Origin: Vittaforma corneae ATCC 50505
Taxonomy: Eukaryota > Microsporidia > Nosematidae
Reading direction: 5' to 3'
NCBI RefSeq assembly: GCF_000231115.1
Contig: NW_006889834.1
Span: forward strand, 1 to 64,000
Length of the DNA stretch: 64,000 nt
Within the stretch, counting starts at the first letter, position 1, and the number at the start of each line of letters is the position of its first letter. The translations under genes and the position numbers were made by a program. Shown here piece after piece: positions 2,387 to 57,712 of this stretch. Under the pieces are notes generated by a model. That model was not told where the DNA came from. It did not search any database and saw only the letters and a program-made list of their open reading frames with translations.

Positions 2387-2526
2387 ATTTAAAGTTTTCA
2401 TTAAAGATTATTGGGATTGTCCTATCCTTGAAAACAAATCTTAATGTATGCCAGCGCACTGTTTCAGTTACACTTGCTGCTTATTCAAATTGCTGATATT
2501 TGTTGTCAAGCAAAATTTTTTTACAC

Positions 2527-3713
2527 ATGGGGTTTGAAGAAATAAAGTTGAACGAAAAGATTATCGAAAAATTGAAGAATAGAGGAATAGCCGAACCGAC
2601 TGAAATACAGAGAAGAACATTTCCATCGGCTGCAAATGGACACGATCTAATTGGTATTTCACAAACTGGTTCTGGCAAAACTTTTGCATTTCTTTTACCA
2701 ATAGTTCAACAGATACTCTTATCAGACAAACCATTTCATGCTCTCATTTTGGTGCCAACACGAGAACTTGCACAACAGATATTTGACATACTCAGTATTT
2801 TTGACGGATTGAACATTAGGCAAGCTCTTCTTTCCGGTGGCGACAATTTCAATGAACAGACAAATGCACTAAATAAGAAGCCACATATCGTAATTGGAAC
2901 ACCAGGAAGAGTGGCTAAACATATAGAGAAGACTAAAAATTTTCATATTGAAAGGATTAGAAAGTTGATATTTGATGAAGCTGATCGCTTTTTTGAACAA
3001 GATTTTGTTCAAGATCTTGAAATAATATCAAAAAAACTCATAAAGAAAAACCAAACTTTAATGTTTACGGCTACACTAACAGACAGATGTAAAGATCTTG
3101 CCAATATTTTTATGAGATCGCCCAGAATATACTCTATTTCTGAAAATCTTGTTCAAATTCCTACGCTTTTGGACAGCTTTGCATTCATTCCTGAAAAATA
3201 TAAGCTCGTTGTACTATACAACCATCTTCAGGAATATAAGCACAGCTCTGTTATTGTTTTTGTAGGTCTCTGCTCTACTTCTCAAAAGGTTGGGCTCACT
3301 TTAGCAAAACTAGGACTACCTTGTGAGTATCTTCATGGAAAACTTGTGCAATCAAAGAGAATGAATACAGTTAAAAGATTTAGAAACAAAGAGTTCAGTA
3401 TTTTGATTTCAACAGATGTGGCTAGTCGAGGGCTGGATATTCCACATGTTGAGCTTGTCATTAATTTTGATTTGCCTGACAATTCAAAGATTTATACACA
3501 CAGAATAGGTAGACAGCCAGAGCAGGCAAAGAAGGTCTTGCATTTTCTTTAGTGACTCAATATGATGTTGAGAAATTACAAAGGATTGAACACGAATTAA
3601 AAAGAAAAATCAACAATATTGAATATAAAGTATATTCTAACTATGATCAAGTCAAGGAAGCTTATGACGATGCAAATGTAGAGTTTAACCTTGATAAATC
3701 ATTTAAAAAATGA
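2527..3713 (+). CDS. RRP3: DEAD-box RNA helicase RRP3/DDX47, frame broken in motif VI
   Basis: Predicted nucleolar ATP-dependent helicase of 40S pre-rRNA maturation. Visible motifs in order: PTEIQ (Q motif), QTGSGKT (I), PTRELAQQ (Ia), GTPGR (Ib), DEAD (II, followed by R), MFTAT (III, usually SAT), STDVASRGLDIP (V) and HRIGR (VI). The frame then reads into a stop at 3552. In the frame shifted by one base, starting near 3513, motif VI continues as TARAGKEG and the RRP3-type ending VTQYDVEKLQRIEHELKRKI follows to TGA 3711-3713. One base is missing near 3511-3515, giving 395 residues across the break. Start ATG 2527 (MGFEEIKL) fits the conserved N-terminus; an upstream TTG is also in frame. Probably a sequence error, since both halves stay conserved. 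Confidence 0.85.
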
Positions 3714-9422: not shown

Positions 9423-11722
9423 ATGATCCATATTTTATGCATGCCTTGGTATTGCACGCTGTACCTAAAAGAAGATACAGCTGTTGATGTAAGCTGCTAT
9501 TATTCTAAGGAGTGTACAGATGATTATAGAAGATGGATCTGCAAAAGACACAGTGAGAACGACAACTACGACTCTAGTTCATATTTGTTTTCAACTACTA
9601 ACTATTCAGTAAAGAATGAAATATTACCAGAGCTATTCAAGAAGTATATTAGTATGAGTAATTCAAACTACAATAATATAATTGTTTCTTTTATTTGTAA
9701 CTTAAGAGAAATAACCAGCCTATTAGTCCAATATGTCCACAGCGGTAATTCTAGCTATTTTTTTATATCCAATCCTGAATTTTCAGAGGCACTGGCCAAA
9801 AATACAAATCTTGAATCGGCTGTTTGCTTATGCTATAGTTTTGGAAATAAAAATTCATCATCAGTTCTTATTTCGTATTTAGAAATTAACGGAGTGGTGG
9901 TTGAGCATGCCCCTAGTGATAAATATACTGGTATTTATAATACTATAGAGCCATTTGATAACTACAACTGGGATGTTGCATATGGCCGTTCAACCAGTAT
10001 TGTTGACAATAAGCAACATCTTCTTATTTACGGAATCCAGTCTTCGCTTTTTCATTCCATCAACCAAACAGCCACCAACCTTGGAAAACGTAAACTACTC
10101 AGAAGAATTACTGATCCACCAGATCATAGTTGGATTCAAACATCCTTAAATTTCATTCAAAAATTTCGAAACAATCCTATTATTCAAAAAGTGTCCGAAC
10201 TATTAAAGAAAATCAATGCTTTTGATATTAAAGCCACAGAGAGAATCAATGACATTGAACTGGGAACATCCTTTCTAATGGATCAGTCAACCAATGATTC
10301 AAAGAGTATTTATAGCAGAAACAATCTAGAGGAGAGTTCTATTCTAAAGTACAAAAAAATAGTTAAAAACGTAGAAAACATCAAAAATAACATGGAAATA
10401 TTCAATGTTCTCAAGAAAGAAATAGAAAAGACAAATACTGAAGAAGGCATTTTTGGTGATTTGATCGAAGCCCTGTCTGAAACGTCTACAATTGAACGAA
10501 TTGATACACAGTTTAGCGTTATAAACTGTAAGGCAGAGTGTGTTTATCCTTTTCTAGCCGATAGAATTGGGTTTGTTGTCAAATCAGGCGTAGACTCATA
10601 TCTTGACTTGTGTAGAGGCATGTACGAGGAAAAACTGTTGATGTGTCAAGACGTTCTGAATAAGATTCAATCGGTATACGACCTTGAAATTTATTTTGGA
10701 GATGACAGGGAAATTTGTTTAATGAAAACCAATTCGCATGAAAGAAATGAAGCTAAAATGAAGAGAAATGCGACAGTTGAGCATAAAAGTTCGTATAGAA
10801 GCAGTAGTACAATGTTGGACAAAGTTGGTACGTTCCAAAATAGGCCATCAAAGAAAAAACGAAGAATAAATTCAAGCAAGGCCATAAAGCTCTTTGTACT
10901 GAAAGAGTCTAAAACAATGATACTATACAGCTGCCCTGAGCTCAAGGCTCTTAACAAGCTAATCAGAGAGCTTTTAGATCAAATAATTGAAATAGAAGGT
11001 AGATTTGCAAGTCTATTCTACTTAAAATCCAACAGTATGGTATATTTTTTACAAGAATTTGTAGTTTAATATCTGAACTTGACACTTTGATCAGCAATTC
11101 AATGTTTTCCAAGGAAATTCAATTTAAAAGGCCAAGAATCGAAAACAAAGTGTCCATTCACAATGTCTCACACGTTCTATTTCCTGAATTTCAAAGAAGT
11201 TCATACTTGTTTGAAAACAATGAAGTTTATGTAATAACGGGCGCAAATATGGCAGGGAAGTCTTGCTATTTAAGAAACTTGTTTCACATAGCTATTTTAT
11301 CAAAGATTGGGTGTTTTATTGACTGTGACAGTGCTGAAGTTCCAGCTTTTGATGAAATGTACTTTATTAACAGTATTGAGGATGTCAACATTCTAACACA
11401 GAAGATATTAAAAAAGACGGTTAGCATAGAAGAAAACTACAAAACACCAGAAAGACTGGTTTTAATCGATGAACTTCATTGCTGTTCAAAAATACAGTTG
11501 AACTTACTGCTTCTTCTTAAGAATAGTAGGATTCTGACTCTTTTTGTAACTCATCGAACTGAATTAATCGATAAATTAAAAGACAGGAATTTTAAAATAT
11601 TTTCGTATGAGAACTTTCAGTTAAAAGAGGGAGTTAATAATCAATCAAATGTACTAAAAATATGTGAAAGACATTTTCCTGAAATACTGCAGCCTCCCGT
11701 GAAAAGAATGCACTTTTATTAA
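9423..11722 (+). CDS. MSH4: MutS homologue, MSH4-like, one frameshift
   Basis: 766 residues across a single missing base in the T-run at 11045-11050: the first frame stops at 11069, and the second continues as ICSLISELDTLIS. MutS lever and clamp regions are visible. GKRKLLRRITDPP marks domain III, and the clamp FVVKSGVDSYLDLCRGMYEE resembles MSH4's AVRSNINEFLDIARRTY. There is no N-terminal mismatch-recognition Phe-x-Glu motif, as in MSH4/MSH5. The ATPase has a Walker A of GANMAGKS (normally GPNMxGKS) and Walker B LVLIDEL, but the following GRGT and the signature-loop region are not recognisable. Known role of MSH4-MSH5: stabilising meiotic crossover intermediates. Assignment to MSH4 rather than MSH5 is by resemblance only. 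Start ATG 9423 has no CCC signal. Confidence 0.7.
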
Positions 11723-12815: not shown

Positions 12816-14482
12816 TTAAAGTTTAATATCCGGATTAGAAAGGCCTGGGTCCATGTAAGTGCCCGATTTCTTAGCCTCGCTGTATGACTTACTTAAATAT
12901 CTAATGGGCAGCACCCAGATAGAACAGAAGAATACAATCACCAATGTTGTTACACCGAAGTAATAACGAGAATCTTGTGCTCCAGTGATTGCAAACATGA
13001 TAATGCCGTAGAATGAACCAATGGACTTACCAAGCTTAGTAATTGAGCCATCAAATACACCCTTAAAAAGAGGCCTGATGCTAGGATCAATCTTCATAGC
13101 AACAAGTTCCTTAACAATATCGAAGAAGGCGTACTTGGCTACTTTCATGAAAGATTGAATGGCAGTACCAGCAATTGCTTCTTCATAAGGATATTTGTTA
13201 ACAGCATTGTACCAATGGAAAGGCCACATATTGTCTGATCCTGTGGCAGGGAAGTTAGTAATTGAGAACCAGAACTCAACAAGAGATGAGCAAAGGCTGA
13301 CTGTCAATGGCACAGCGGCAAATGCAGCAATGCCAAACTTATCTGGAAGAAGTGAGATAGGAGAAATGATAATTATGCACGTTGCAATTGACGTACAAAT
13401 AAGATCCATAGACTTGAACCCAGTAGCGAAGAAAGACTTTTCCCTATCCAGGTATGAAGCCGCTGCCGACATACCACTTGCATTAGCTGTTTCTAAAAGA
13501 TTAGTGGAAAAGTTGTAGAAGAAAGCAACGGCACACATGGAAAGAAGTAACTTAGAGTTAACCATAAGATAAATGGAATCTCTGAATCCAACTTCTTTTT
13601 CTTGGAGGCGGATTTCTTGGGAGCGCCAGAAGGAATAACCACCAAATTGAGAAGCTCCTTTTCAACAATTTTCTTTATGAAAAGGACGAAGACATACAAA
13701 GCTATAGCGCAAAATGGAAAAATAAAATAGTATATGTCAGAGTCAGCTTTCGGCTTCTTCTTGTATATATCACTCCAGAATTTGTAGCCAAGACCAGCGA
13801 AACATGAACTAATATTAGAGAAGAATAAAAGTGTTCTTACAAACCTCTTATTTTGATTTTCACTTGTATTGTTATTAACGTATGTCATGAAGCAGAAAGA
13901 TACCATCATAGATCCTATAACCTCTGCAAGGATATAGAATGCAGAGTACACATATTGATTAAGGACAATGCAAAGAGGATAAAATCCATTCAATCCTCTC
14001 ACTGTCAAGGAATCAGATACGAAGAGCAAATCGCTGAATATGTCATTAGGTTGGATATACTTCGTAGCCATCATAAGCAAAGCATTAATGGCTAAGAAAA
14101 CGGTGAAGCACATTGTCATAATTCTAAAAGCATTGTTGAAGTCTGTTTTAGAGGATATGTTCTGACAGAAAATGACTAGAAGCTGAGTAACAACAAACGT
14201 AAGAAGCTTGAGCCAGTTCTTTGTATCAGTATTGTCTAAAACTGCATATACGACTCTATCCTTGAAGAGCCTTAGAAAAGCGTATGTGAAGGAAATCGTG
14301 CAAAACATAATGGCAAAAAGGGTTACTCTTAAGCGCTCCTCTGGAAGGATAGTAAAGAAATAGCCAAGCCAAGATGTTTTCTTAAGCGTATCAGCAGCTA
14401 CTACAAGCTCCTCCTCGGTCCTTGGTGTGTATTTTTGATTTGTTGAAACTCCCGATTCTACGGGATTTTCTACTTCAGCCAT
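12816..14482 (-). CDS. NTT: ATP/ADP translocase (NTT nucleotide transporter), one frameshift
   Basis: 555 residues when one missing base near 13565-13580 is allowed for. The upstream frame runs to SEIPFI and the second resumes at LMVNSKLLLSMCAV. A multi-helix (about 12 TM) plastid/Chlamydia-type nucleotide transporter, unrelated to mitochondrial carriers. Visible hallmarks are the first helix ERLRVTLFAIMFCTISFTYAFLRLFKD, the LNGFYPL loop and the later FYNFSTNLLE helix. These proteins were acquired from bacteria by an ancestor of microsporidia; they import host ATP at the parasite surface or supply the mitosome. The start ATG 14482 follows CCCCTACT, which excludes the upstream in-frame codons. 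Other paralogues would be expected elsewhere in the genome. Confidence 0.93.
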
Positions 14483-14639
14483 AGTAGGGGCGCAAAGGAG
14501 TAAAAATTTTAAAAGTAGCTGGGAAATCACGAGAGAAATTCATAAAAAATAAAGTAAAGTAAGGGAATGAGAGAAAGAGCATGGGTGTCTAGAGGACTGT
14601 TTAATTCAAAAGTGTAGTCTACTAATCGTTTTGTTTTCA

Positions 14640-16042: not shown

Positions 16043-19000
16043 ATGCTACGAGAACAGCTCGAAGAACTCCAACGTACAAAAAGAACACTTTTACATACAA
16101 AAAACGCACTCATAAGATTTGTACTGGACGAAGATGTTGACTCTCTCACACTTTTCAACAATCTTCCCTTCCCTACTTCTTTCACTACTCAAAAGTCCCT
16201 ATCCTTTGACAGACATACGCTTTCGGAAAAGGAGGAGAAGCGGTTTAACTCGCGATTCGCACCTTTCTTAAGAAATTTAATTTCCAAGAGCAAGCATCCT
16301 GGCATTGACATTCTTCTTGAGTATCTTATGAGGATTTATTGTATAGACACATTTAACCCCCAAGAACTGACATTCTTACTTTTACCATTCAAGAAATACT
16401 TTAATCAGCTTCAAATCATAGCTAAGAACACCAAGAATCAGTTTTCAAGTCTCAAATCATATTCAATTTCCAGTATTTCAAGGATAATCGTCAAAGATAA
16501 AAGGCTAATGCTAGACTTTGTGAAGTATTTTAACGCCTATGAAGTATTAAAAGAGTTTTTGGACAAGACAATGGACGAAATCATTGACATTTTAAAAGCA
16601 TCTGATATGGACTATTTAAGTGAGATTTATAAAATTATGGAACTATTAATTCAGCACGGCAATCCATTGAAAGCTTTACAGATATACCACAGAATGAGAT
16701 CGTACTTGAATACAGATGACTTCATCCTTCTTCTACTGCCCTATTTCCCAAAAGATTTGATAGAAATGAAAGATCATAAAGAAAGTGGCAACAAATATCA
16801 GATGATTTTCAACAACAAAGGTGGAAGAAGCCTTCTCAAAAATCAAATTGAAATTTATAGATACTTGGAATATCTTCTGAGCTGTGGATTAATACCTGAC
16901 GAATTTAATGATAGCGAATACAAAACTTTGCAGCACATATTTTTTGGGAAACCAGTTGATCAGATTGTTGAAGGCATTCATTCCAACAAAGTGGCAGATA
17001 ATCTAATTGAGTTATTTAAAGAAATTGAGCCAAAGGACGAATTACTAAGTTTTATTGTACGAAATAACATACAAAGGTATTTTGCGGAACACCTCAGCGA
17101 TAAAGACAAAGTATATTTGATCAGAGAAGCTTTTGACGTCAATTATTTGACACCAAACAACTATAATCTATGCATCATGAATCTGAACAAGGATGTGTTT
17201 AAATCAAAATATAATCAAATACTAAACAGATGTCTCCATTTCCGAACATTCAACCCTGTGTATTTTAGCAAATTAATTGACTTTGACTTTAATGAAATTT
17301 TCAGCTGCCACTCTCCTCAAGCAAGTACTTACAAGCAGAATGTAATCAAATTATTGGAGAGGAAAAACATTAATCTGTCAGATACTTTTTTTAACAATAA
17401 TCTCCTCGGAGATTCCTCTGTTTTGTCCTATCTTCTAGAAAATGGCCAATCCTTTTCAGAAGAGCAATTATTTGCTATAATCGAAAACACTAAGATCCTT
17501 AAATCGCCTTCCATTGTTGCAAAGTTGCTTTACTACATCCTCAGAAACTTTGAAAAATTATCCTCGCGATTCAACTTTAACGATTTTGTCTCGTGGCTAA
17601 TCAACAACGATTTTTTATCCACTTTAATCTCAATCATTAATGTATGTACTGAAAATCACTTCAGTAACATTGACACTGACGTGCTCTACATGCTATTTTT
17701 AGAAAGTGCAATGTCTAGTTCTGGAGATACATTAATCAGTATCCTGAAAATTCTAAGTCAAAGAGGATTTAATGTAGTTGGTAGGCTCTACGACTCAAAA
17801 AACTATGAAATCATCTTAAAGATTGCAAACCTAACTGAGTTGTCAAATGTTTTAACTTCACATGTAAATACTCCTGATTTTATCAAAAATTACTACGGTA
17901 GAATATCAGATCAGCATGCTTTAGTGGCGTTTGTAATCAGTAATAGTCAACATCGAAACTATCTGTTCCTACTTGCTTACTTTATTGATATTTTGATTAC
18001 TTTTAGAACCCATCATTCATGGAATGTTGTTAAGCTTGTTCTTATTGAATGTCTATCAGAGAAGCGTCAACTTCAGAAAGCTCTTGAGTATGTTCTTTCA
18101 CATTTTGATTTATTTGATGATTCTGACGGTGATCTTTTTCAAAAGATTTTTTCAGGGGATGTAGTTTTCGATATTAAACGTATCGAGACTATTTTGTGTC
18201 ACGAATCGGCGGCAGCTACCTTGATTCATTCTTGCCTTCTACTAAGTAAAGATGCTGAGATGCTTCCGATCTTGCCTCATATTGTGCCATTACTGATTAA
18301 ATACAAGAAAGACACTGTTATTCAGTTATTCAAAAGATACGGGAATGTTATGGTAACGTACATTAAAGATATCCTACAACATTACCCTGAAATTAGCCAC
18401 ATTTTATTAGATCTTGAGCCTAAATTTGTACTAAAAGAGCTATGCAGTTCTCTTACCATTCAGAACATTGATATTCTTCTCAAGATTCTCAAAACCAAAA
18501 CATGCTGTAGTAGTGATGTGTTTAAACGACTTTGTGCATGTTTTAACAAGCATGTTGGATCGTTAATTACTTCTGAACATATTTTAGCATTGATAAGGTT
18601 TTTCAAAAATTCACGTAGTAGTGACTATATGGCTGGAAGCATGCTCAAGGAAGTAGAAAGCGCTCTTTCTGATTTTCTGGTAAATGTTTATATTGCCAAT
18701 TCAACGATATTTTATGAAACAATGCTTGATGGAGTGGGTATGTCTTCATCGCTATTTGCTGATTCAGCGAATTTGACTTTGCAAAACATATCTGGCGAAG
18801 TTTTCGAAACAAATAAGAACATTTCAAACGATCTGAAATTCCTGTGCCATTTTTTAGAATATAACCATATCACAACTGAAAATACAATGGCGCTTTATGA
18901 GCAGGTTTTTAATGCCAGGAATTGTCTATCTCCAAGGTTAATCTCGTATCTTATCAGGGATGACAGTCAGGTACTTGGGGAGTGTATCGGCCATCTTCTT

Positions 19001-21755: not shown

Positions 21756-23431
21756 TTAGTCATAGTCGACCTCTAGCTTTGATGCTGTCCAGAAAAGTAC
21801 TAGCAAGAGCAGATCAACGATGAATAACAGTATTGCAACTCCCATCAAATATGTTTTATATTGCTCAATGCCACCTTTTTCTTGTAAAACCGACGAGCAG
21901 ATCGTTAAGGCAGTATCGACTTTGGTTTTAAACGTAGGAAAATCCAGTTCCAGTCTTAACTTGTGAATCACGGTTTTCATAGCCACATCCTTTATTTCCA
22001 CCTTATCAGCAAGTTTTTTGCCACTCAAAAGTTCTAAGATGCCAGTAGTTACTATAATGTATTGTTTCATTATATCTTTTGATTCCTTCTCAAGTCTCTC
22101 ATATTCCTCCAGTAATCCCTCCACACTGACATTTTCGTCTATCTCAAAGGTTGACAATACTAATGACCAAAATGTATTTTCTAGTAGACCTTTTGTTGTG
22201 AGTTCAGAATCTCCTCCAATATAGCTCTCAGGTTCTTTAATTCCATCCTCTAAATCAGGCCAAATATCGTCAATGATTGTTTTAGAAAGCTCATCGTCTG
22301 AAATACTTGGATTCTTTGATCTGCCTTCTTTGATTATATCCGCTACTCTATTAGATGTTGTTTTTTCATGCATATAGCGAAAAGTTTTGTGGCACAAATC
22401 CTTATTAAATTTAACATTATCTGATTTTGCAATACCTAGTAGATCATGGAACAGCACGGAGATATTGTCTGCAATTTCAAGATCACTCAGAGTTTTAATA
22501 AATTGGTTCTTGGCTTGCACTTGCAATTCTCCACCTGTTTTTGAAGACTCAATATTTAAAAGTATAAAATATGTGCAAAACAGTCTGCATATTGCAAGTA
22601 CATGTCTATTTGCATATGCAGAATCTAAACTACTTGTCAAAGCATCTAAACCAGCTTTATCAAGAGTTGCATCCGATTCTTCTACAACTGGCGTGGGAGA
22701 TGACTTTATCCATCCTAAACTAACCAACGATGAGTATATTGCCTCTCCCCAACTACTTGGGGAACATCTGTAATAAATTTAATGTTCTCCAATCTTTTTT
22801 TATTCCCCATTCCAATATATTTTTGTACTTGCTCACATGCTGCTTTCATATCTGTAAAAAGTTGGTCAATGTTCTTTTTTATGTCATTAAACGTTTCTCC
22901 ACCAACACCTAGGCTTTTGAAATCGCTAATGATAGCATCATGAAGAAGAGTAAAGAATTTATCAATATTATCTGCATCGCAGAAACGATTAGCTAGAGCA
23001 AGAATTAGATTGCAAACGTTCAATCTGTCTTTTGCATCTTTGCTAAAGTTTGCTAAGGAAGGATCATTTTTTGGATCATGTGTGAGAATTTCTTTAAACA
23101 AAACACCTGTTTTTAATAATTCTTCAAAATGTGCTTTAACGACAGATAAATCTTCTGTGAAGTCGATGTTTTGGATCTCAGCTGTTGATCTACACCGTCT
23201 CTTCATAATGTTCAGCAATGGATCAACTTTGTTTTGAAAGTCAATGTATCCCCATTCATTCATGCATTCTTCTTCACAAAAATGGTCATAAATATTGTCT
23301 ATCTTTGTCTTATATACTTTATACTCATTATAAAATTTCCTTAATGCCGATTCTTGCTGTGGTTGTCCAGTTGCATGCAGCAGTAACAAGTTAGTGAAAA
23401 CAATAACTTGTGATAACACACCCCGTTTCAT
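21756..23431 (-). CDS. orphan signal-peptide/TM protein, family copy 1, one frameshift
   Basis: 558 residues when one missing base in the G/C runs at 22747-22762 is allowed for; the paralogue at 56033-57712 has 559. I do not recognise a described family. An N-terminal signal peptide (MKRGVLSQVIVFTNLLLLHATGQ) is followed by a helical ectodomain with conserved cysteines and one C-terminal TM helix (VAILLFIVDLLLLVLFW) with a short tail. Shared with the paralogue: GYIDxxNKxxPLLNxMKR, LLHxxIxxxFxxLG, KYIG near the break, FILLxIE, SDLEIxD, LSTFxIDENV and QYKTY. The start follows CCCCTCAAC. Probably surface or secretory-pathway exposed. A near-identical partial copy lies across the assembly gap. Confidence 0.75.
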
Positions 23432-23782
23432 GTTGAGGGGTCTGCTCAAATCTGCATATATACCTTTAAAGGAGTAGTCCCCTTTAAAATTAAATCTAAT
23501 ATACTCAAAAGCGTGACAGTTGACAGTTTGCTAAAGGGAATATTCAATGGTATTGATTGCAGAGATGAAAAATTTAATCACACTGGCATTTACTAGTAGA
23601 AAATTTAACAGGATTGAATAGTTTTAGCTTGCATTCAACAGTGTTTATCATTCCTAGCATCTGTCAAACGTCTTGTAGAGATCTTTCAAATCACTCATTA
23701 AAGACAACGTGTCTATTATTTCCATCGTTGCTATTGTTTCGGCTTTAATCTTGTTAAAAAGTTTGATGTCGACCTTGGCTTT
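22870..23782. repeat. 0.91-kb imperfect repeat, left copy (contig-end overlap)
   Basis: This block (5' half of orphan gene, spacer, MLH1 3' end) recurs at 23803-24718 in the same orientation with roughly 4% difference and a few small indels. It ends exactly at the N gap, and the right copy begins exactly after it. That is the pattern of two contig ends that overlap but were not merged. Confidence 0.85.
23654..23782 (-). pseudogene. duplicated 3' end of MLH1, cut by the gap
   Basis: The last ~42 codons of MLH1, ending in TFDRC and a stop, nearly identical (about 2 differences) to 24591-24718. Read through the Ns it appears fused to the orphan gene's N-terminal part; that fusion is an artefact of the gap. 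Most likely the same locus sequenced twice. Confidence 0.75.
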
Positions 23783-23802
23783 NNNNNNNNNNNNNNNNNN
23801 NN
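23783..23802. other. assembly gap (20 N)
   Basis: Twenty unresolved bases joining two contigs, flanked on both sides by copies of the same 0.9-kb sequence. The round length suggests a nominal gap, possibly of negative true size. Confidence 0.95.
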
Positions 23803-24367
23803 CATTCTTTTTTATGTCATTAAACGTTTCTCCACTAACAACACCTAGGCTTCTGAAATCGCTAATGATAGCATCATGAAGAAGAGTAAAGAACTTATCA
23901 ATATTATCTGCATCGCAGAAACGATTAGCTAGAGCAAGAATTAGATTGCAATTGTTTAATCTTTCTTTTGCATCTTCGCTAAAGTTTGCTAAGGAAGGAT
24001 CACTTTTTGGATCATGTGAGAGAATTTCTTTGAACAAAACACCTGTTTTTAATACTTCTTCAAAATGTGCTTTAACGACAGATAAATCCTTTGTAAAGTC
24101 GGTGTTTTGGATCTCAGCTGTTGATTTATACCGTCTCTTCATAGTGTTCAGCAATGGATCAACTTTGTTTTGAAAGTCAATGTATCCCCATTCATTCATG
24201 CATTCTTCTTTACAAAAATGGTCATAAATATTGTCTATCTTTTTCTTATATACTTTATACTCATTATAAAATTTCCTTAATGCCGATTCTTGCTGTGGCT
24301 GTCCAGTTGCATGCAGCAGTAACAAGTTAGTGAAAACAATAACTTGTGATAACACACCCCGTCTCAT
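23803..24367 (-). CDS. orphan signal-peptide/TM protein, near-identical copy, 3' end lost in gap
   Basis: The first ~188 codons of the same gene as 21756-23431, starting MRRGVLSQVIVF with the same signal peptide and the same CCCCTCAAC start context. By eye I count about 23 base substitutions in ~560 bases plus a 3-base indel (GVGG versus GVVSG). About 16 of these alter an amino acid. The copy stops at the N gap, so its C-terminal half is unseen. Either the second haplotype of copy 1 or a true recent tandem paralogue; the boundary pattern favours the former. Confidence 0.7.
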
Positions 24368-24718
24368 GTTGAGGGGTCTGCTCAAATCTGCATATATACC
24401 CTTTAAAGGAGACTACTCCTTTAAAATTAAATCTAATATACTCAAAAGCGTGACAGTTGACAGTTTTCTAAAGGGAATATTCAATGATATTGATTGCAGA
24501 GATGAAAAATTTAATCACACTGGCATTTACTAGTATAACTTTTAACAGGATTAAATAATTTTAACTTGCATTCAACAGTATTTATCATTTCTAGCATCTG
24601 TCAAACGTCTTGTAGAGATCTTTCAAATCACTCATTAAAGACAGCGTGTCTATTATTTCCATCGTTGCTATTGTTTCGGCTTTAATCTTGTTAAAAAGTT
24701 TGATGTCGACCTTGGATT
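23803..24718. repeat. 0.91-kb imperfect repeat, right copy
   Basis: Counterpart of 22870-23782, beginning at the first base after the Ns. The spacer and the MLH1 end are more similar to the left copy than the orphan coding part is. Confidence 0.8.
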
Positions 24719-26589
24719 TTGCATAGATCTTAGCAACACCTTGAGCAATGCTTTTGATTGTGCCAACCTCATCTGTTTTTTCAACAGTTAGCTCTCCAAA
24801 GCATCCCGCAAAACCACTACCATTGTTGTCGCCAAGACCAGATTCGTCTTCAGGCACAATGTCGTATATTTTAGGGACTGCAATGATCTGCTTATTCTCA
24901 ATGTGGACTCCAAAGTACTCTCTCAGCAGTTCCCACAGATCCTCATGTATACCAGTCTCAACCGCGTGCTGCAACTCAATACTCTCAAAGTTTCCAAACT
25001 CTTTCAAAATTTTCTGGTAAAAAACATTGAAAAGAAAAGACTCCTTGTCAATTTTTATAAGATTTGTTTGATGCTGAACAAAGATGTCATTTGCAAATAC
25101 CCCAACAAACGTTAGCGACTTGAAAAATGATTGATCGATTTCTTTGAGTTCGCTCAACAATGACTTTAGTGAAATTAAGGAGAACTTTCTGTAGGTCTGC
25201 TGGTGTTTTGAAGTGTTTTCATCCAACCTTCTTACAAATGGTGACGAGTATATTTTCAAGGGACTAGACTGGACGGCTTTAGGGAAGATACTCGTATTAG
25301 TGACCGAAGCGTCTGAGGTATGGGCGCTTGTGTTTGGTAGTAAATCACTGGTATCTAAGACGCTACTCTGATCAGTGTTGTAGGTGTTTTCATGGTTGCT
25401 TATACTCTTGTCATTAACAACTTTACAACTCCTTGGACTATTTTTAGAAGAACTAGCTAAGCTTCCAATATTAGAGACAGCTCCTAAATTCAGGGTATTT
25501 TCATTAATTTCGAGGGTATTTTCAAAAATCCTGTCAAATGCCTGCAATATTTCAAGAAACATATTTTCATTGCCAATGAGCACCTCTGCCTTGCTGGGAT
25601 GCACGTTCACGTCCACACTGTCAACAAACATTTCAATAAATAGCAAAAGGGACACATCCTTTTTTCAGGCACCTGTATTTTTGTAAAACCCTATTTTTCA
25701 GCGAATCATTCTTGACGAGCCTTCTATTTACAAAAAGAATAAATTTGCTAGACTTGAAGACTGCATTAAGCTCTGAGCATATAATTATGAATCCTTCATC
25801 AACAACACAATGGCTTTTACTATTTCTAAATCTATAAAAACTTCTGAGATGCTCATTTTTGCCCAAAAAATTCTTTGAATTAAGTATATTTTTCAAAATG
25901 TAGCCTTTTCTGTTTTCAATAGTCTTGTCAATATCATGGCTCATCCCTCTTTCGCATGGGTCTCTACCCAGAATTACCTTATTATCAACTTTGCATTCAA
26001 TAGAATTATAGATAATGCCATAGTATGCAACTAATTCAATACAGTTAAGTAATTCGACCCTGTTTTTTGAGAAGTACTCAGATCTGATCGTATTATTGTA
26101 GAAAATGTTCTTTATTTCAATAAATGTACCATGCCCATCAAATGCACATTCTTTTACATCAATCAACCTATCACTATTGTAAATAGCTACATGCCCCATA
26201 CCATCTTTGACATCGCACCTTTCCAATGGAGATGTTTTAGTTTGAATTTTTATATGACTGCAAAGACTAATTGAGTGCAACGCCTCTCCCCTAAATCCAA
26301 AACATGAACTTGAAGTAATAGAACCATACTTTTTCAAATCTTCGATAGATTGGATCTTTGAAGTATAATGGTTTAGGCAGAGAAATTCTAGATCGTCTTT
26401 TTCGATTCCAGCACCGTTGTCTCTTATCGAGAGATTTTTGAGAGATGAATCAATGCTTATGGTAATTGAAGTTGAGTGGGCATCTAATGAATTTTCAAGC
26501 AACTCTTTTATTATGTTATACGGCGAAGTTATTACCTCACCGGCAGCTATTCTAGAAATCACAGATTCTGGCAATCTTTTGATAGGCAT
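24591..26589 (-). CDS. MLH1: DNA mismatch repair protein MLH1, one frameshift
   Basis: 665 residues when one extra base in the T6 run 25660-25665 (A-run on the coding strand) is removed. The GHKL ATPase domain is textbook: ELLENSLDAHS, DNGAGI, TSK...GFRGEALHSIS, and DVNVHPSKAEV just after the break. The extreme C-terminus reads FDRC, the MLH1-specific FERC ending, so MLH1 rather than PMS1/PMS2. MLH1 joins PMS-type partners in post-replicative mismatch repair and, as MLH1-MLH3, in meiotic crossing-over. The start ATG 26589 (MPIKRLPESVISRIAAGEVI) follows CCCCTTCAAAGGAAG. Length is a little below yeast (769). Confidence 0.93.
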
Positions 26590-26772
26590 CTTCCTTTGAA
26601 GGGGATTAACACCTATTTTTAGAAGCGTAAGCTCATCCATAAAAAATTGTGTACAGATTCTTTATATTAAATGGCAGGTTTGTCAAGAGCAAATGCATAC
26701 GTCAAGGCTACAGTCAAGTGAAATTCTCAGCAATATAGTCGAGGAATAAATAAAATTAGAATTTTATTAATA

Positions 26773-41175: not shown

Positions 41176-42913
41176 TTATTGTTTGTCCAATAACAGCTCG
41201 TTATTTTTAATAGATTCCCTGTAGAATTTTGCAAATCTACTATTCTGACTTTGAAGCAATTCATGTAATGCTCCTACCTCATATTGGTCTTTATTCCTAA
41301 AAATAAAATTTTGTCAAAATGACCCAGAAGCTTCAAGTTATGAACTATCATAATGACTGTCTTGCTTTGCATGTGTGTCTTTATTGACTCTATGATTTCT
41401 AACTCTGATGCCTCATCCATATTTGAGGTGGCTTCGTCCAATACCAATATTTGTGAATTCCTAATAACTGCCCTCAGAAAACATATCTTCTGCCGCTGAC
41501 CTCCACTTAAAAACTTTCCTCTCTCGCCAACTCTCCTGTCATATCCAAGTTCCTTGAATGTGTCGTGCATATTGTACATCTTTGAAAATTCGACAACTTT
41601 CTCATCTGCTACAGATTCGCTTCCACATTTTAAATTCTCAATAATTGTTGAATCAAAAAGAAAGCTCACCTGCGGCACATAGGCTATCGCTTCCCTTACT
41701 CTTTTCTTGCTAATTGTTGAATATTCAAGGCCATCAATCCTTAGAGAACCTTCATAGTTATAAAGTCCTAGCAGTAATTTTGTAAATGTTGATTTTCCAG
41801 ACCCATTTACTCCAGTTATGGCCAATTTTTGCCCAGAAGGTATTCTCATCGAAAAGTTTTCGAGAATAGTCTTTGAATCGTATGCAAAGCTCAGGTTTTC
41901 AGCTTCAATTTCATTTCCTTTGATTTCGAAATCCATTGCATTTGGATTTTCATCCAGCTGGCAGTTTTCTATGTTACTTTGATCTAGGTTTACGAAATTG
42001 TTCGCCAGCGAATCAAAGCTGTCAATCATATCAAGAACTTTATCTTTCACTTTGTTAAATACAAGGGTGTAGCTCTTAAGATCCAGGCTTTTCTTTTGTA
42101 GATATACCAAGGGTACCTAATAGATATGTATTAATTGACAGAAAGAACAACGAATTGATATACGAAATTATATCATTGCTTACCCAGAATATTGTACCGT
42201 AAAATACTTGGTAATCCATTGATCGTCTGAAAAGACCTAGCTCATGTTCTAAGTTGTCATATGAGACAATTCTCTCATAATTGTATAGAATGTCATACAT
42301 CTTTCTAGAGCAGATTTCGTATCCAAGATTTACTCTAATTCTTGCAATTGATCTCAGAAACTGGGCAATAACCGAAAAAGTCATAAATGCAAGAATGCAC
42401 AAGAGTGAAATTGCCTTTTAGCCTAGCACTTTTAATTTCGTTTCCAAGACTTCCGATGGCGATAAGAAAAAATAGAAAATTCGATGCAAAATCCACACAA
42501 ACCGACGAAAGAAACTCTATCAAGGCAAATACTCTTCTGTTAATATTGTACTGGGCCTCGCCAATTCCTATTTTTGTAAAGCTTTGGTAACTAATTTTCA
42601 GGTAATCGCCAAAAAAATTTGTTAGTGCATTTTTGATTGAACAAGCAACAAAGTAGGCATTAAATAACTCATAGCCTAGTTTTATGGTGTATCCAACGAC
42701 AAAATACACACAAAACATCATTGCAGATTTTATCTTTGAATTTCCTTCGCTGTCTTTATTCGTGACATCAGCCATCGTTTGATAAATTCTAATTTCAAAA
42801 AAATTATAAGTAACCAATGCAACAAGAGCCGGAATCATTAAATTTCTCAACCATCTCACGCTTGTTATGTACTGCTCGATGTATCGCCTTGTCTTATTAA
42901 TTGCATTTTGCAT
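41176..42913 (-). CDS. ABC half-transporter 3 (ATM1-like), three frame interruptions
   Basis: 578 residues across three single-base breaks: an extra base near 42416-42419, an extra base near 42111-42113, and a missing base near 41299-41303. After the last break the expected C-terminal exporter tail (RNKDQYEVGALHELL...) reads to a stop at 41176. The TM domain begins MQNAINKTRRYIEQY. NBD motifs are fully competent: GVNGSGKS, YVPQV, LSGGQRQK, LVLDEATS and IMIVHN. The start ATG 42913 lies after ACACCCAAATAAACACCA. Conservation of motifs on both sides of every break argues for sequence error or very recent decay. Paralogous to the two ABC genes upstream. Confidence 0.75.
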
Positions 42914-43649: not shown

Positions 43650-44142
43650 AATATATTCAAAATTAAAATTCTTTATCAATCTGTCTATTTATTCTTGAAG
43701 AATTCTATCAATAATGAGGTGTTTGTTTATTTGATTTAAGGCAAAGAATATTAATACAAATGACCTATGCACAAATCATATCGATCCTTAGCCATTGCAT
43801 ATTAAGCATAGTATAATGCCTTAAACAAGCTCAATACTCATTTATTTCATATTTTTCGTCTGTAATCAAGAATTAAACAACTAGACAGAGTACACTTGAA
43901 AACCTTGGCCAGCTTTTAATGCAGATTCATATTTGTATGTTACAGGCTTAAACGAAAGCAAAAAATTATTAAATGAACAAAAATTTTCTAAAAGTCTGCT
44001 CAATCAATGGCTAAAAGCCACAGACTACCAAAGCCGAATTTAATAATATAAACATATAAGCAACATTGATTTGTTCTTATTTAATCTTCTTTGGCAATTA
44101 TATTTTAGGCTGTGGATTTGTTGTTATTTCTTGGTCCCTGCC
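43650..44142. other. intergenic, no gene seen
   Basis: 493 bases. It ends with GGTCCCTGCC before the dynein ATG. The open frame continues upstream of that ATG to 44071 without conservation. Nothing else recognised. Confidence 0.55.
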
Positions 44143-47100
44143 ATGAAAGAGATCACAACATTGGAACTAGCCAAGATTCTACAGTCAAATGATCCAGAAG
44201 TGTTTTTCACCAATGCAGATTATGAAAACATTCTTGAATCCACTACTTCGCAGCTAATACAACTATTAATAGCTGTCAAGGAAAAGAAAATCCAGAACAG
44301 TGCATTCAAGGATCCGGATGAAATATCAGCAGTAAGACTTTTAAACAGCGTCATTGCAAAGATAAATACAAGAAGAGAGAACACCATAAACTTTACACTT
44401 CCCGCAGCCATCCAAAATCTTTATTTTTCCCAAAAGCTGTTTGTGCAATGCCCACTGGCATTCTCATTTGGAGATCAGGAGGATTTAAAGAAGTATGAAA
44501 GAGATCTTGTGAATATAGTAGAGCAATGGATTAGCTATTTAAAATCAATTTATACAAAATTAGGCCATTTCAATAGAAGCTTTCCAGAGGAGAAAGCTTT
44601 CTGGATGGACCTAAGGTCAGAGTTAGATTCAATCCATAATTTTTCAGTATCAGAAGAATATGAATTTATTATTGAAATGCTAAAAAGAATAGGAAAGTTG
44701 TCATTAATGTATACGTTAATTATGCTTATAAATGACCAAAAGATTTATAAGATCTGTGAGGCTTTCCATTCAGTGTATAGTAATTTCGAATTTTCATATG
44801 TTTTGTTTCTGAAGCACAGTAACGAATCGCCTATTGTATTAGATGACAGGGACACGCATCCATCAAATAATGTGGCTGTAAAACAGGACCATTTGCCTTT
44901 TGTCTCCAATATTTTGATTATCTTTAAAATTCTAAGAAATTTGAGGAAAATGCCAAGAATCATAAGAAAGTCAATCTCGAGCAATCTAAATGCATTAAGA
45001 ACAACGATAGTTAATGAGACTCTTGTCAACTTCCATCCAACCTTCTACGAAATTTATGCTGAATATACATCACTCGCCCTATACTTTAATTTGCAAAACG
45101 ATAAGGATTCTGGAGATTCGCGTATTACAATAGACCATATAAAGGATTTTTCAAAGTACATCAGTTCACTAAATAGTATTTACAAAGCATCAGAGCTTTT
45201 CCAGTACATTTCCGATTCGGAAAACAGTTTACAATTCCTAGAATTGATAAAAACCTTTGAGTTTGAATTTAAAAAAGCACTGTTTGAAAATGAAATACAA
45301 CATAACGCATCGCTTCCAGTCAATTCAAGGTCTCCTCTCGACTCTGACTTTGTAACCAACTTGCTAAAATCAAAAGGCAATGATTTCATCAATCAGAACA
45401 CCAACAGTCTTTCCAAATTAAGACATCATTTTAAGAACCATAGGATATTGTTTGAATTTAAGATATTTGAAAGCATAGTTTCCAAGTACGTTGTAAATAT
45501 ACTGAAAACTGTTTTGAACTGTTCACTAGCCAACTCTTTAAATGATACAATTTGTGAGCACAGTGGCCGCACCGTTAACATTCCGGACATAGTTGATGTA
45601 ATATTAACAGCGCTAACATTAAAAAGTATTCTGTGCAATTGCTCCGAAGCAAAAGAGTTCTTTGAGTTGAAAGCTTCGAAAATAAAGAATATAATTGAAA
45701 TTTACGAAAGATACATTGCAAGCCTTCCATCAGACCTTCTAGAAACCACCATTATTAATACGGAGACTAATGATAATATTGGAACAGAAAATAACGATGA
45801 TATTAATAAGCTTGAATTAAATGAAAGTGTGGTTGGAATAGTTGATATGGAGGATCAATTAACTAGAATGTATGAAACAATCATCTCAGAAGACAACAAC
45901 CTTCCATTATTTGATATAAAACTGCTCGAAGATGTTAGGTTTATTAAACCAAGACTTGAAGGACTCAAAGGATTTCTAAATGAGTATAAAAACGAAGTGA
46001 GACAGTGCGGTTCCATATTTTACAATGAAGAGATTGAGGAGTACTTTAAAGGTCATGTTGGATTAAAATGGAGGTATTACAGTGAGGAGACTCAGAACCA
46101 GGAAAGATGTTTATATGAAAGATTTAAAAAGAAGAAGAAACAGTTTTATATGATGCTTGAAGAATTAAAAAGTGAGTACATTCCGAAGATTATGAATGAG
46201 GATTCTTCAATTGGCAACGGAAGATATGAGCCATGCGATGTAATGTGCTTGTTTGATGGATTTGATAGAAACCAGGTTGAAGAGGCTTTGATTAAGAAAA
46301 GGGATGAGATTTTAGAGATAATTTTAACTATTGTAAAAGAAAAGATGAGTAAGAGCAGACATGTTCTGCAACTAGCTATTTCAAAGGACGCTATTCAGTT
46401 ATTATCAAACGATGTGGTTGTATACGATATAATCCAAGAGTATATTTTACGCTTTAGCGGCTTTGAAAAATTACTTAATATTTCTGCTTGTATAAAACAG
46501 CTAGAAACAGACGTACAGAATGAACTCGATATAATTAAACAGGCGATCGATGAAATGGCAGAAAATCACACATTGTGCTGTAAAAATGAAAAGAACGAAT
46601 CTTCAAAAACACATTTACTTTCAATTTTGGAAACTTTACAAAAGACAAGGAGAAATGAGGAACTGCACAGACAGCTTTCTTTATTCCAATTCTTTGAGAT
46701 CAATTTCAAGTTTGATAGCTATTCATTTTCTGCTCAAATCAAGTCGATTTTCAGTCAACTTTGTTTTACTGTTAGTCAGTACAAAATAGCTGTTCGGTCA
46801 TCTCTACTCTCACTAATCCAGGAATTTTCTTCAAACAATACTATACCTTTATTTATTGATTCATTTATTTTGCAATACGGACTTTTGAGGTGTTTTGATG
46901 AATTACATTATGTCTTATCTTTATTGCATGAAAATACTCCTGAAGATGCTGCTATTCATGCATTGCTAAATATTGGGTCTGAAAACACGATATTATCTGT
47001 ATTTGATAATAGATATGCTCAGTCTTCATTCACGGCTCATAAAAACATTCAATCTGAAGTTATTGAAAATCTTCTTCTAAATGTTGTTTTTGATGAGGCT

Positions 47101-50100
47101 ACTGGAATATTAGATGAGGCTTCCATAAGGTCGGTTATACACAACGGTGTTACTTTCAAACTGAAGCAGACCCTAACTCAAGACGAATTTGAACTGTTAA
47201 GCTCAAAAAAGCATGAACTTGAATCTAAGATTAGTGAAATAAGCAGCATTTACCATAACTTCCCATGCGATGAAGACACATTTCTTCCCTATCTTTCACA
47301 GTTTAGAATCAAATGTGATGCATTATCCAGAGATATTGCAATGTTCAACGAGCTTTTTATCTTTTATAAGTTCGAGGCTCTCTCTTTTAATGTTTCTACT
47401 GAAGTATTAGAGGCTGAATATAAAACATTTAGAGAAATGGACCAAAACATAAAGAAGTTCATGAGAACCAAAATTTCCACATTTATTGAGCAACTGGCAA
47501 ACGGCTGTGAAGTTTCTAACTGCAGAATGATTGAAGAAACCGTGTTTTCTAAATTGCTATGTTCTTTTAATACCCAGTTGATGAAGAATTTTGTAAGCCA
47601 AGCTGAGAGCCTTAAACTTCCCCTTTCGTATTTAAAAGAATTATCAAAATTTAATATATCTCATTNAACCCTCAATCTTGAAGGTAGTTTTAAAGACTAT
47701 ATTGATTCATTTGATGAGAAACAGATGAGGATATCGATTGAAAAAATAAAAATGGATATTGAAATATCCAAATTTCTATCTGAAGAAAGACCAAGACTTA
47801 CTGATTTAATCAAAATTTCCACTGTTGGATCACATTCCTATGTTTCTAATATTTCAGAACTGTCATCTATTTTGAATGCCCAAAGATCCATGCTTGATCT
47901 GACAGTTAAATTCAACAAATTTAATCTTTACAAAAGTGAGCTTGATCAAGTTGATGATCTCATCAAAATAGAGCAGGAATGCTTTGATATTCTGTGTAGT
48001 GTTCAAGACAAAGTTTTTGAGCTTGGAATGATATTATCTAAAGAAGGCACCAACTTGTTAGACCTTGAATTATTGAAATATAATCGTAGTAAGGTTGACT
48101 TTGAAAATCTCATATCCAGATCCAGCATGTCGAGTAGTACTGATGTTTTAAACAAACTTAAAAATATAAGGTTTGAACTGGACAGTATAAGCAACGGAAT
48201 TAATGTAGCAATTGATGTTCTCAGACACAAATGTAATAGACTGTATTTCATTCCGAATACAGATCTTGTAAGGAGCATGAGCAGCACAAAGGGAATATGT
48301 TGGCTACTTACAAGTATATTTAATATTAACGAGATTATAACAGAGGACGAATGTATTATTGGCATTTCAAGTGGAGTGGGAAAGAAAAAAGAGAAAGTAA
48401 GCCTTGTGTCCAAGATTAATTTGAATGACAATTTGGAAAATATTGTTAATGGGTTTGAAAGATCCCTGAAGCAAACATTGAAGAGTACTTTTCTAAACAA
48501 AATAGGCCATGCCAAGCAATCAGAATCTGGCAATGATTTTATCAATCAGAGTATTTCAATTGTTGATGAATTAGTGTGTGAGTATAACTATTTCAATGGA
48601 AAATCAAAGGAAAAGTCTTATAGAGCAGAAAGGATAGAGGCTTATTCGGAAAAATTTCCTGATTTAATGAAAACAATACAAAAATATACTATAAGCTCTG
48701 AAAACATGCCCTTAGACAAAAACAGCAAGGATATATTGGATATCATTTTGAAAGTCGATGACCTGGAGTACTCGTTTGAATACTATCCTCCAACCGACTT
48801 TATTTTCACCTACTTAACGGCTAAGATTTTTACTGCTATTTCTCTTTCTAAAGATGAGTCAGGTGTTATTTTCTATGGCCCATCCGGTACGGGAAAGACT
48901 GAGAGTGTCAAGTATTATTGCAGAAGTGTTGGAAAACCCCTCTTTGTCTTCTGCTGCAATGAGAACTGTGATTTTGAATCTCTTAGGAACATTATTATTG
49001 GCTGCGAGCTAACTGGCAGCTATATCTGTTTCGATGAGTTTAATAGATTGAAGAAGGATGTTATGTCATCAATAACAGAGCTGCTGTATGAAAAAAAAGG
49101 GGTGGTAAAGGTATTTTTAACTATGAATTTAGGATATAAGGGAAGGTCAGAACTACCCAAAACTCTAAAGAGTATATTTGGGGAAGTATCGGTTCATGCA
49201 CCTGATATTATGGACATTATTTACTTCTATACAGGTAATTATAAAATGTATGAGCTAATCAGCTGTCTCGACAGGGAATGTAGTCCAGAAGATTTTTATG
49301 ACTTTGGACTGAGGGCAATCAAATTCATTTTTAATCAGATGGAATATCCTGATTTAGACGATAGAGCTAGTACAAATAAGACAGACATTAATGCTTTTCT
49401 GTTAAATGCAATATACTTTTACATGGCTATTTTCAAAAATAAAGATAGACAACGCCTGACACTGAAAGTTCATGAAATATTTAATGTTAAAATCAGCGAA
49501 TTGAAGATTGACCTCTCTCATGAAAATATCTTCAGAAGAGCACTTAGTCTGAGGAATGGGATTGTTGTATTCGGAAAGAAAGGAAAATCACGTCTTATAA
49601 ACACAATGATAGCTTTAGAATCTAATTCTGTAGACAAGAGTGAGTTCAAACCTGTGAGGAGAATGTTTAAGTACAATCCTATGAATTTATTAGAAGTCAA
49701 TGACTCAATCTTTGGTTCTGTAAATAAAGTTACCAAAGAGTGGGAGGATAGTGTATTTTTAAAGGATTTAAGAAATTCACTACTCAGTGCAGGAGAGACA
49801 TGGTTCATTTTTGATGGACTCTTAAAATCTGAATGGATTGAGGATTTTAATAGCGTGCTTGATGATAATAGGCTTTTGTGCTTAGTAACAGGTGAAAGAA
49901 TCAAGATACCATTCTGCTTTAAGTTTATCTTTGAGACAGACAGTATTGAGGAGGCAACGCCAGCAACACTTACGCGACTATTTATGATTAATGTAGATTC
50001 TATTGATAGCCATGATGCTTGTTGCGTTAGTGCATGTGATGATGCCAACCATGATAGTATTAATGCTATTAACAGTGGCAATCAAGAGATGTGTGATTCT

Positions 50101-56032: not shown

Positions 56033-57712
56033 TTAATGAACAGACTCTTCACTTGCAAATACTCTGTTAGCTTTCAAAGCTCTCCAATAAAATAGCAGCA
56101 GCAAAGCGTCAATAACAAACAGAAATACATTCAACACTATTACATAGGTTTTATATTGGTTGATAGTAGCTTTGTCTTTTATAATGAAGGAAATGCGATT
56201 CATCAATCCATTTTTAGTCCCTTCAGCTGAAAATAAAGGTTTTTCATGCCTCGACCCAACTTTAAGGAGTATACTTCTAAAGACTATATTGTTCTGTGTG
56301 TTTTTATCAGTTGGCTTTTTACCAATTAAAATGTTCAGAATATCTGGCATTTCATGCATATAAAGCCTTGCTGGACTTGTTGACCTGCTCCCAAACAGTT
56401 CTATTTCTCTCATAACATTATCAAGATTGACATTCTCGTCTATCACAAATGTTGACAGAAGCATTGCCCAGCACATGTTAGCCAATATGTCTATCGTAAC
56501 AAGTTTTGAGTTTTTGTTCACATAGACTTCGAGGGGTTTCCCACTATTAATTAATTCTTGTTGGATAGTGCCAAAAGCTGTTCTAAGAACCTCGCCTAGT
56601 TGGACACTCGGATCCTCAGAATATGACTTTATGATAGTTTTGTGAAGGGTCTCAAGAACCGTTTTCCTATGCATAGACATAAAAATATTGCGGCAGATGT
56701 CTTTAGAAAACTTGGGCTTCCCTGTTTTGGCCATGGTAGGCAGATCGTAAAATAGTATTGCCATGCTATCTAATATTTCTAAATCACTAATTGCTTTAAT
56801 ATACTGATCCTTAACTTCTAACGGTAGTGACCCACGATTTTTTTCAATTTCAATAGTCAAAAGTATAAAGCAATAACAAAACAGCTCAGATATAATGGGA
56901 GCATGCACATGCAAGTACATTGAATCTAAGGTTTTCTCTAGTTTGACTAGTACTTCATGATCTAAGGCTATGCCAGAGTTTCCATCCTGTGTCGGAACTA
57001 TGAAGCTTGGCAACAGCAAGGATGACTTGGTAGCTTGATTCGGCTCTTGTTTTTTTGGAATACCAGCCATCATTCTCATATTTTCTACTGCTTTTGGATT
57101 GTTAGTTCCAATGTACTTTTGTAGCATCCCACTTGCACCTTTAAGAAACATAAAAACCTGATTTACTTTATCTGTAGTATCGTCTGACATGGCTCCATCA
57201 AGACCCAAAGTTATGAAGTTATTGGTAATGCTATTATGAAGTAAAGTAGAAAAGCTGTTGGCATCATTTGAACCATTGAAATATAAGATCAATGAACTAA
57301 TCAAGGTACAACGATTTAAATGCATCTTTACATTTTCATTCATGATGTATTGAATAACATCTTTGTTAATAATGCTTGTTTCTAACAATTCGAAAAGCTG
57401 CTTATCGATAATGCTCAAATCTTCTGACCAATATATGGGCGAAATGCTGTTTATTGATTCGAATTTTCTTTTCATATCATTTAAAAGTGGAATTAATTTG
57501 TTCTTCAAGTCTATGTAGCCATCCGCATTACAGCATTTATCCCCAACAGAATATCCAGAAAATTTCTTGACAGCTTTCTTGCAAACACCATCATAGTTGC
57601 TATAGAATTCTTTCAGCAATGACGTATGCTCGCTGATTTGCGTTTGGCCAGTTGCACGAAGCAGTAAAAAGTTGCCAGCAATGAGAGCATTTTGTAATAC
57701 GCAATGTCTCAT
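56033..57712 (-). CDS. orphan signal-peptide/TM protein, family copy 2 (intact)
   Basis: 559 residues, uninterrupted. Same architecture as 21756-23431: a signal peptide ending LLLRATGQ, an ectodomain, and a C-terminal TM (LNVFLFVIDALLLLFYW) with a short cytosolic tail. Conserved points across both: GYIDxKNKxxPLLNxMKR, a Cys before LIxxL, LLHNSI, GLxGxxxxD, KYIGxxNxxxxEN, FCYCFILLTIE, SDLEI, DICxxxFxxMHxKT, LSTFxIDENVxxxxxxRE and QYKTYV. Overall identity by eye is moderate (roughly a third), so the two loci are old paralogues. No described domain recognised. The exposed topology suggests a surface or secretory role, by inference. The start ATG 57712 lacks an adjacent CCC. Possible gene-family expansion elsewhere. 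Confidence 0.8.
   Translation of the reverse strand: MRHCVLQNALIAGNFLLLRATGQTQISEHTSLLKEFYSNYDGVCKKAVKKFSGYSVGDKCCNADGYIDLKNKLIPLLNDMKRKFESINSISPIYWSEDLSIIDKQLFELLETSIINKDVIQYIMNENVKMHLNRCTLISSLILYFNGSNDANSFSTLLHNSITNNFITLGLDGAMSDDTTDKVNQVFMFLKGASGMLQKYIGTNNPKAVENMRMMAGIPKKQEPNQATKSSLLLPSFIVPTQDGNSGIALDHEVLVKLEKTLDSMYLHVHAPIISELFCYCFILLTIEIEKNRGSLPLEVKDQYIKAISDLEILDSMAILFYDLPTMAKTGKPKFSKDICRNIFMSMHRKTVLETLHKTIIKSYSEDPSVQLGEVLRTAFGTIQQELINSGKPLEVYVNKNSKLVTIDILANMCWAMLLSTFVIDENVNLDNVMREIELFGSRSTSPARLYMHEMPDILNILIGKKPTDKNTQNNIVFRSILLKVGSRHEKPLFSAEGTKNGLMNRISFIIKDKATINQYKTYVIVLNVFLFVIDALLLLFYWRALKANRVFASEESVH

Follow-up and report, generated by a model that had tools for sequence, protein, structure and literature searches.

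A small, apparently clade-restricted family of putative secretory-pathway membrane proteins at five loci in Vittaforma corneae, with a probable unmerged allele of one member

The window, by which we mean the whole 64,000-nucleotide stretch of Vittaforma corneae DNA that was analysed, carries two genes of one protein family, referred to here as copy 1 and copy 2, and a near-identical stretch, copy 1', that is bounded by an assembly gap (Table 1). Copy 1 and copy 2 are both encoded by the minus strand, the forward-strand translation of either interval being riddled with stops. Copy 2 is intact. The copy 1 interval, 23431-21756, measures 1676 bp, which is not divisible by three, and its coding sequence is split over two frames. 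Thus, of the matching lengths of 558 and 559 residues proposed in the initial annotation, the second holds for the copy 2 ORF, but two-framed copy 1 has no 558-codon ORF. Stop-free runs at copy 1 and copy 2 reach 323 and 564 codons, compared with a longest run of 224 codons in 60 simulated first-order Markov windows, and chance frames are therefore excluded.

Table 1. Family genes, repeat elements and frame-split conserved genes of the window.
Feature	Position	Strand	Description
Copy 2	56033..57712	-	Intact 559-codon gene, single frame; signal-like N-terminus, predicted helical body, C-terminal hydrophobic segment
Copy 1, N-terminal piece	22715..23431	-	Own frame; ORF from first TTG 23449-22715, 244 codons
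Copy 1, C-terminal piece	21756..22727	-	Other frame, 323 codons; holds C-terminal hydrophobic segment
Copy 1'	23804..24367	-	First 188 codons, second version of copy 1, cut by gap
Assembly gap	23783..23802		20 N
MLH1 3' end, second version, plus 72 bp	23582..23782	-	Starts at gap edge
MLH1 3' stretch, first version	24519..24719	-	At end of MLH1 ORF 24591-25655
MLH1	24591-26640		Frame-split; DNA_mis_repair profile 38-77, then 77-111
ATP/ADP translocase	12816-14530		Frame-split; TLC 8-276, then 279-491
MutS	9423-11722		Frame-split; domains III and V
DEAD-box helicase	2500-3713		Frame-split between HRIGR and TARAG
ABC half-transporter	41274-42913		Spread over three frames

Judged from the sequences, the paralogy of copy 1 and copy 2 is real. 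Against copy 2, the N-terminal piece of copy 1 has 82 identities in 229 aligned residues and the C-terminal piece 115 in 323, about 36% in each case, and the six motifs first listed as shared, GYIDxxNK, LLHxxI, KYIG, SDLEIxD, LSTFxIDENV and QYKTY, are all found in both genes. Nucleotide differences from copy 2 at the first, second and third codon positions number 104, 84 and 129 over the 229 codons of the N-terminal piece (chi-square p 1e-4), and 146, 130 and 198 over the 323 codons of the C-terminal piece (chi-square p 2e-7). From this third-position excess it follows that both pieces diverged from copy 2 as coding sequence. Reading the alignment by eye, cysteines 60, 135, 279 and 340 of copy 2 have counterparts in copy 1.

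Searching the organism's own genome with copy 2 recovered three further loci, at C3:149970-151534, at C7:49565-50175 and at the end of contig C6, the last retaining the C-terminal part of the protein only. The family thus totals five loci in this 2.9-Mb, 35-contig assembly, two of them on C1 and one each on C3, C6 and C7; no sixth was found in searches with both copy 1 pieces and one piece each of the C3, C6 and C7 members, and the count, which comes from single-protein searches, is a lower bound. The suggestion that the family might be expanded elsewhere in the genome is borne out in that there are members on three other contigs, but with only five loci the expansion is not a large one. Copy 1 lies 22 kb from a contig end and the C6 member less than 1 kb, contig ends not necessarily being telomeres, and the remaining loci are internal (copy 2 at 56 kb, C3 at 150 of 217 kb, and C7 at 50 of 114 kb). 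In the C3 member the signal-like start, the first body segment and the remainder occupy different frames, while the C7 member undergoes a frame change and then runs into a 399-N gap, with its C-terminal hydrophobic end beyond the gap. As assembled, then, copy 2 is intact and three of the four judgeable members (copy 1, C3 and C7) are broken; the C6 member cannot be judged.

Signal-like and transmembrane segments were assigned solely from 15-residue Kyte-Doolittle hydropathy with a threshold of 1.6. The maxima are 1.71 at residues 4-18 and 2.76 at 520-546 in copy 2, and 2.00 at 4-20 of the N-terminal piece and 3.29 at 290-320 of the C-terminal piece in copy 1. The N-terminus is hydrophobic and ends in ATGQ in both copies, as originally described, and is signal-like by this measure. 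Across the family, an N-terminal hydrophobic segment is seen at three of the four loci where the start is present (copy 1, copy 2 and C7), and a C-terminal one at all five (2.76 in copy 2, 3.29 in copy 1, 3.41 in C3, and 2.77 in both C7 and C6), where it is in every case the strongest of the protein. The initial annotation had proposed one C-terminal transmembrane helix; the strong C-terminal segment is there in both copies, but "one" may be incomplete, as internal stretches also pass 1.6, at 271-289 (2.25) and 404-424 (1.79) in copy 2, at 42-59 (2.29) of the copy 1 C-terminal piece, and at 200-223 (2.12) of the C-terminal piece and 40-54 of the first body segment in C3. Proteins of this family may therefore have more than one membrane segment. 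Given these internal stretches, and a peak of 1.39, below threshold, at the N-terminus of the C3 member, a single-pass topology is tentative. AlphaFold2 models whose input was confined to sequences from the window (4 rows in one, 2 in the other) are mostly helical, at mean pLDDT of 38.6 and 41.8, which is too poor for any claim as to fold.

The search for relatives outside this genome returned none. Three of the proteins scanned against Pfam to E 10 gave no match near the cut-off, and a scan of eight alignment rows to E 1 gave only nine sub-threshold families (Lipoprotein_19 at 0.08, Synaptobrevin at 0.1 and seven others), which we rejected because each appeared in a single member. Nothing usable was found in the PDB, by sequence or by profile, up to E 10. 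In a protein database of 5.8 billion entries, both the sequence and the profile recovered only copy 2 itself, in a search that requires shared 5-residue words and scores about 8000 candidates, so that relatives at around 35% identity could be missed. As a control, the coatomer gamma subunit of the same window recovered 52 proteins including itself, the closest of the 51 others at 82% identity; four relatives were named as microsporidian (Glugoides intestinalis at 63%, Pancytospora philotis at 44%, Enteropsectra breve at 32% and Encephalitozoon intestinalis at 31%), a grouping in which Vittaforma corneae would probably belong (PMC10393165), and the clade is therefore represented in the database, though coatomer is far more conserved than this family. 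Literature searches turned up no title or abstract opening that describes the family. Within these searches, the view of the initial annotation that the proteins carry no described domain is supported; as to lineage specificity, no relative in another species was found, within the sensitivity of the word filter. It had also named two outcomes that would speak against it; no profile match to a housekeeping family was obtained, and the signal-like and C-terminal segments are present by hydropathy.

Interpretation of the broken members depends on how often frames are broken elsewhere in the window. Among the ORFs scanned, 25 window genes have a Pfam match at or above the curated cut-off, and at least five of these 25 are split over frames (Table 1). 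A sixth may be the dynein heavy chain, where two following ORFs have no Pfam match; its ORF at 44071-51762 encodes 2563 residues, in a 2.9-Mb microsporidian assembly, with a possible continuation in other frames to 53795. Homopolymers of at least four nucleotides lie near four of the five breaks examined, and none lies near the DEAD-box break, which falls inside what we take to be the most conserved motif of the helicase. The MLH1 break is common to the window and to a copy on C3, so it may be genuine, or one set of reads may have gone into both places. With frame breaks this frequent in conserved genes, the break in copy 1 is no proof of a pseudogene. We also weighed a programmed frameshift as the cause at copy 1 but discarded the idea, since unrelated conserved genes here are broken as well.

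The near-identical stretch beside copy 1 had been taken for a diverging gene copy, a description that is not supported here. It covers only the first 188 codons before a 20-N gap cuts it off, and the repeat of which it is part borders on this gap from both sides. The repeated unit comprises the MLH1 3' end, the intergenic sequence and the N-terminus of the gene, 915 bp at 95.3% identity by BLAST, and the overlap reaches the last base of one contig and begins at the third base of the other. Along it, the MLH1 3' end matches at 127 of 129 positions and the intergenic part has 207 matches, 15 mismatches and 1 gap; for the coding sequence of the N-terminus the figures are 538 matches, 23 mismatches and 3 gap positions. 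A short palindromic stretch at 24412-24417 and 23475-23480 is nearly its own reverse complement between the two versions, like a micro-inversion. Over 187 codons, copy 1 and copy 1' differ 7, 9 and 8 times at the three codon positions, with no third-position excess; 17 differences are nonsynonymous and 7 synonymous (pN/pS 0.60, Fisher p 0.29), a pattern compatible with rapid evolution or with a relaxation of constraint, but one that does not demonstrate positive selection.

A gap of 20 N is the default of one assembler, and the same geometry recurs at such a gap on C3, which is flanked by a repeat of 1514 bp at 97.2% and two shorter pieces, and where the contig edge and the edge at copy 1' coincide on MLH1 to within one base. 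The repeat at the C3 gap (L012 1346-4614) holds a protein-tyrosine-phosphatase gene (PF00102), 97% identical on either side. A third 20-N gap (L009 973-992) has only a 78-bp match, at the start of one contig, and the 399-N gap in L010 has no flanking repeat match. Near the C3 family member, L009 65-1501 encodes a repeat protein rich in glutamine and proline that ends in a hydrophobic segment, and its repeats lie on either side of a 20-N gap. The C-terminal half of MLH1 (24519-25798) is itself repeated at C3:125914-127193 (L012 4415-5694) over 1280 bp at 99.84%, through either segmental duplication or the double use of a collapsed repeat, and the 201-bp MLH1 3' stretch is found at four places. 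Directly abutting the duplicated half on C3 is L012 4140-4414, to which a 281-bp piece of a 1046-residue ORF at 18392-18672 is 88% identical.

Overall, we believe these observations are best explained by a family of secretory-pathway membrane proteins that is small, with five loci, and restricted to its clade, copy 1' being most probably the second allele of copy 1, which the assembly placed alongside it without merging the two; we would assign this combined reading a probability of roughly 0.55. According to PMC12558613, both diploid and tetraploid states are on record for microsporidia, with Vittaforma corneae mentioned as diploid. Two overlapping contig ends would have been scaffolded with a placeholder gap between them. 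It is improbable, by comparison, that copy 1' is a true recent tandem duplicate that has been truncated or cut by the gap. Duplication, or else the collapse of a repeat, has occurred around this locus, as the fourfold 201-bp stretch and the MLH1 half on C3 indicate, but two independent tandem duplications with edges on gaps and on the same MLH1 base are less likely than unmerged branches of the assembly graph. The MLH1 tail, with 2 differences in 129 against 15 in 222 for the intergenic part (Fisher p 0.04), also looks as if both tails were functional, though the same pattern could come from gene conversion or from a repeat that was collapsed; as the tail is present on C3 too, this argument counts for little with us, and our case for alleles is built on the geometry of the gaps.

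A decaying family, in which only copy 2 still works and the breaks in copy 1, C3 and C7 are real, making these three pseudogenes, would account for the broken frames and for the missing third-position excess between copy 1 and copy 1'. We nonetheless find it doubtful: breaks in conserved window genes, the helicase motif included, point to sequence errors, and the long frames on either side of the copy 1 break keep a third-position-biased divergence from copy 2. Somewhat easier to entertain, if still unlikely, is an ordinary fast-evolving component of the ER or Golgi with no host-facing role, as the sequence specifies no surface location and a short tail with a single anchor would also suit ER residents; it would however be unusual for a housekeeping protein to occupy five paralogous loci when the genome is a reduced one, with no relative found in the clade. 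At the other extreme, and the most speculative of these readings, the proteins might be an adhesin- or receptor-like helical ectodomain family of the Glugoides/Pancytospora-related lineage, with the coding difference of about 4% between alleles, lacking a third-position excess, reflecting host-selected variation.

Under the preferred reading, that of a secretory-pathway membrane-protein family, a general pathway can be outlined. Translocation into the ER would be initiated by the N-terminal signal. The body, mostly helical and with a small number of conserved cysteines, would first lie on the lumenal side of the ER and later on the outside, held by a C-terminal helix acting as membrane anchor with a short cytosolic tail. 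The end site would most likely be the plasma membrane of the parasite, or else another endomembrane exposed to the cytoplasm of the host, a setting in which families of this kind diversify. The family itself, its hydropathy architecture, the coding constraint between paralogues and the failure to find relatives are demonstrated here, while signal cleavage, topology, surface location and host contact are inferred. A host-facing role is plausible by analogy, because comparable Nematocida proteins were tagged from the host side (PMC5423893).

The same study reports that host-facing Nematocida proteins are enriched in clade-specific families with a signal peptide or transmembrane segment, and it defines a microsporidian large gene family by at least 10 members per genome together with enrichment in such features, these families being mostly absent outside the genus or species (PMC5423893). 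The family described here has five loci, a lower bound that falls short of 10, and by hydropathy shows the corresponding enrichment; it may work like a large gene family despite its size. The closest parallels are NemLGF3 and NemLGF4 of Nematocida, likewise clade-specific paralogues with a C-terminal transmembrane segment and no known domain, members of which were tagged from the host side; as described there, they number 18 to 169 members in N. parisii, against five loci here, and are characterised by the transmembrane segment and not by a signal peptide, whereas both features occur here, the comparison being one of descriptions and database search (PMC5423893). The InterB (DUF1609) family of Encephalitozoon, reported too in Vittaforma and Anncaliia, resembles ours in having a signal peptide, a transmembrane segment, multiple copies and no known function, but as described in PMC4704409 its transmembrane segment is N-terminal, following the signal peptide, whereas the anchor here is C-terminal, and it carries DUF1609/DUF3654, neither of which was matched in our Pfam scans. 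A subtelomeric position is a further trait of InterB; here two loci lie towards contig ends and three are internal. Signal-peptide families specific to microsporidia are numerous, and PMC3879972 counts 43 signal-peptide proteins of Vittaforma corneae in microsporidian-specific families, with which ours shares its broad kind, no individual family being equated with it.

Our best reading, then, is that the proteins belong to an already known kind, the clade-specific secretory or surface families of microsporidia, with ours probably single-pass, and that what is new is this small family. For the assembly, the lesson is that a 20-N gap here may stand between alleles that were never merged, and that broken frames are common; numbers of copies or of pseudogenes taken from it are unsafe on both grounds. 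For the biology of the organism, clade-specific secreted and membrane families are leading candidates for contact between microsporidia and their hosts, and few of them have an assigned function; with five loci and one intact gene in the assembly, this family is small enough for experimental follow-up.
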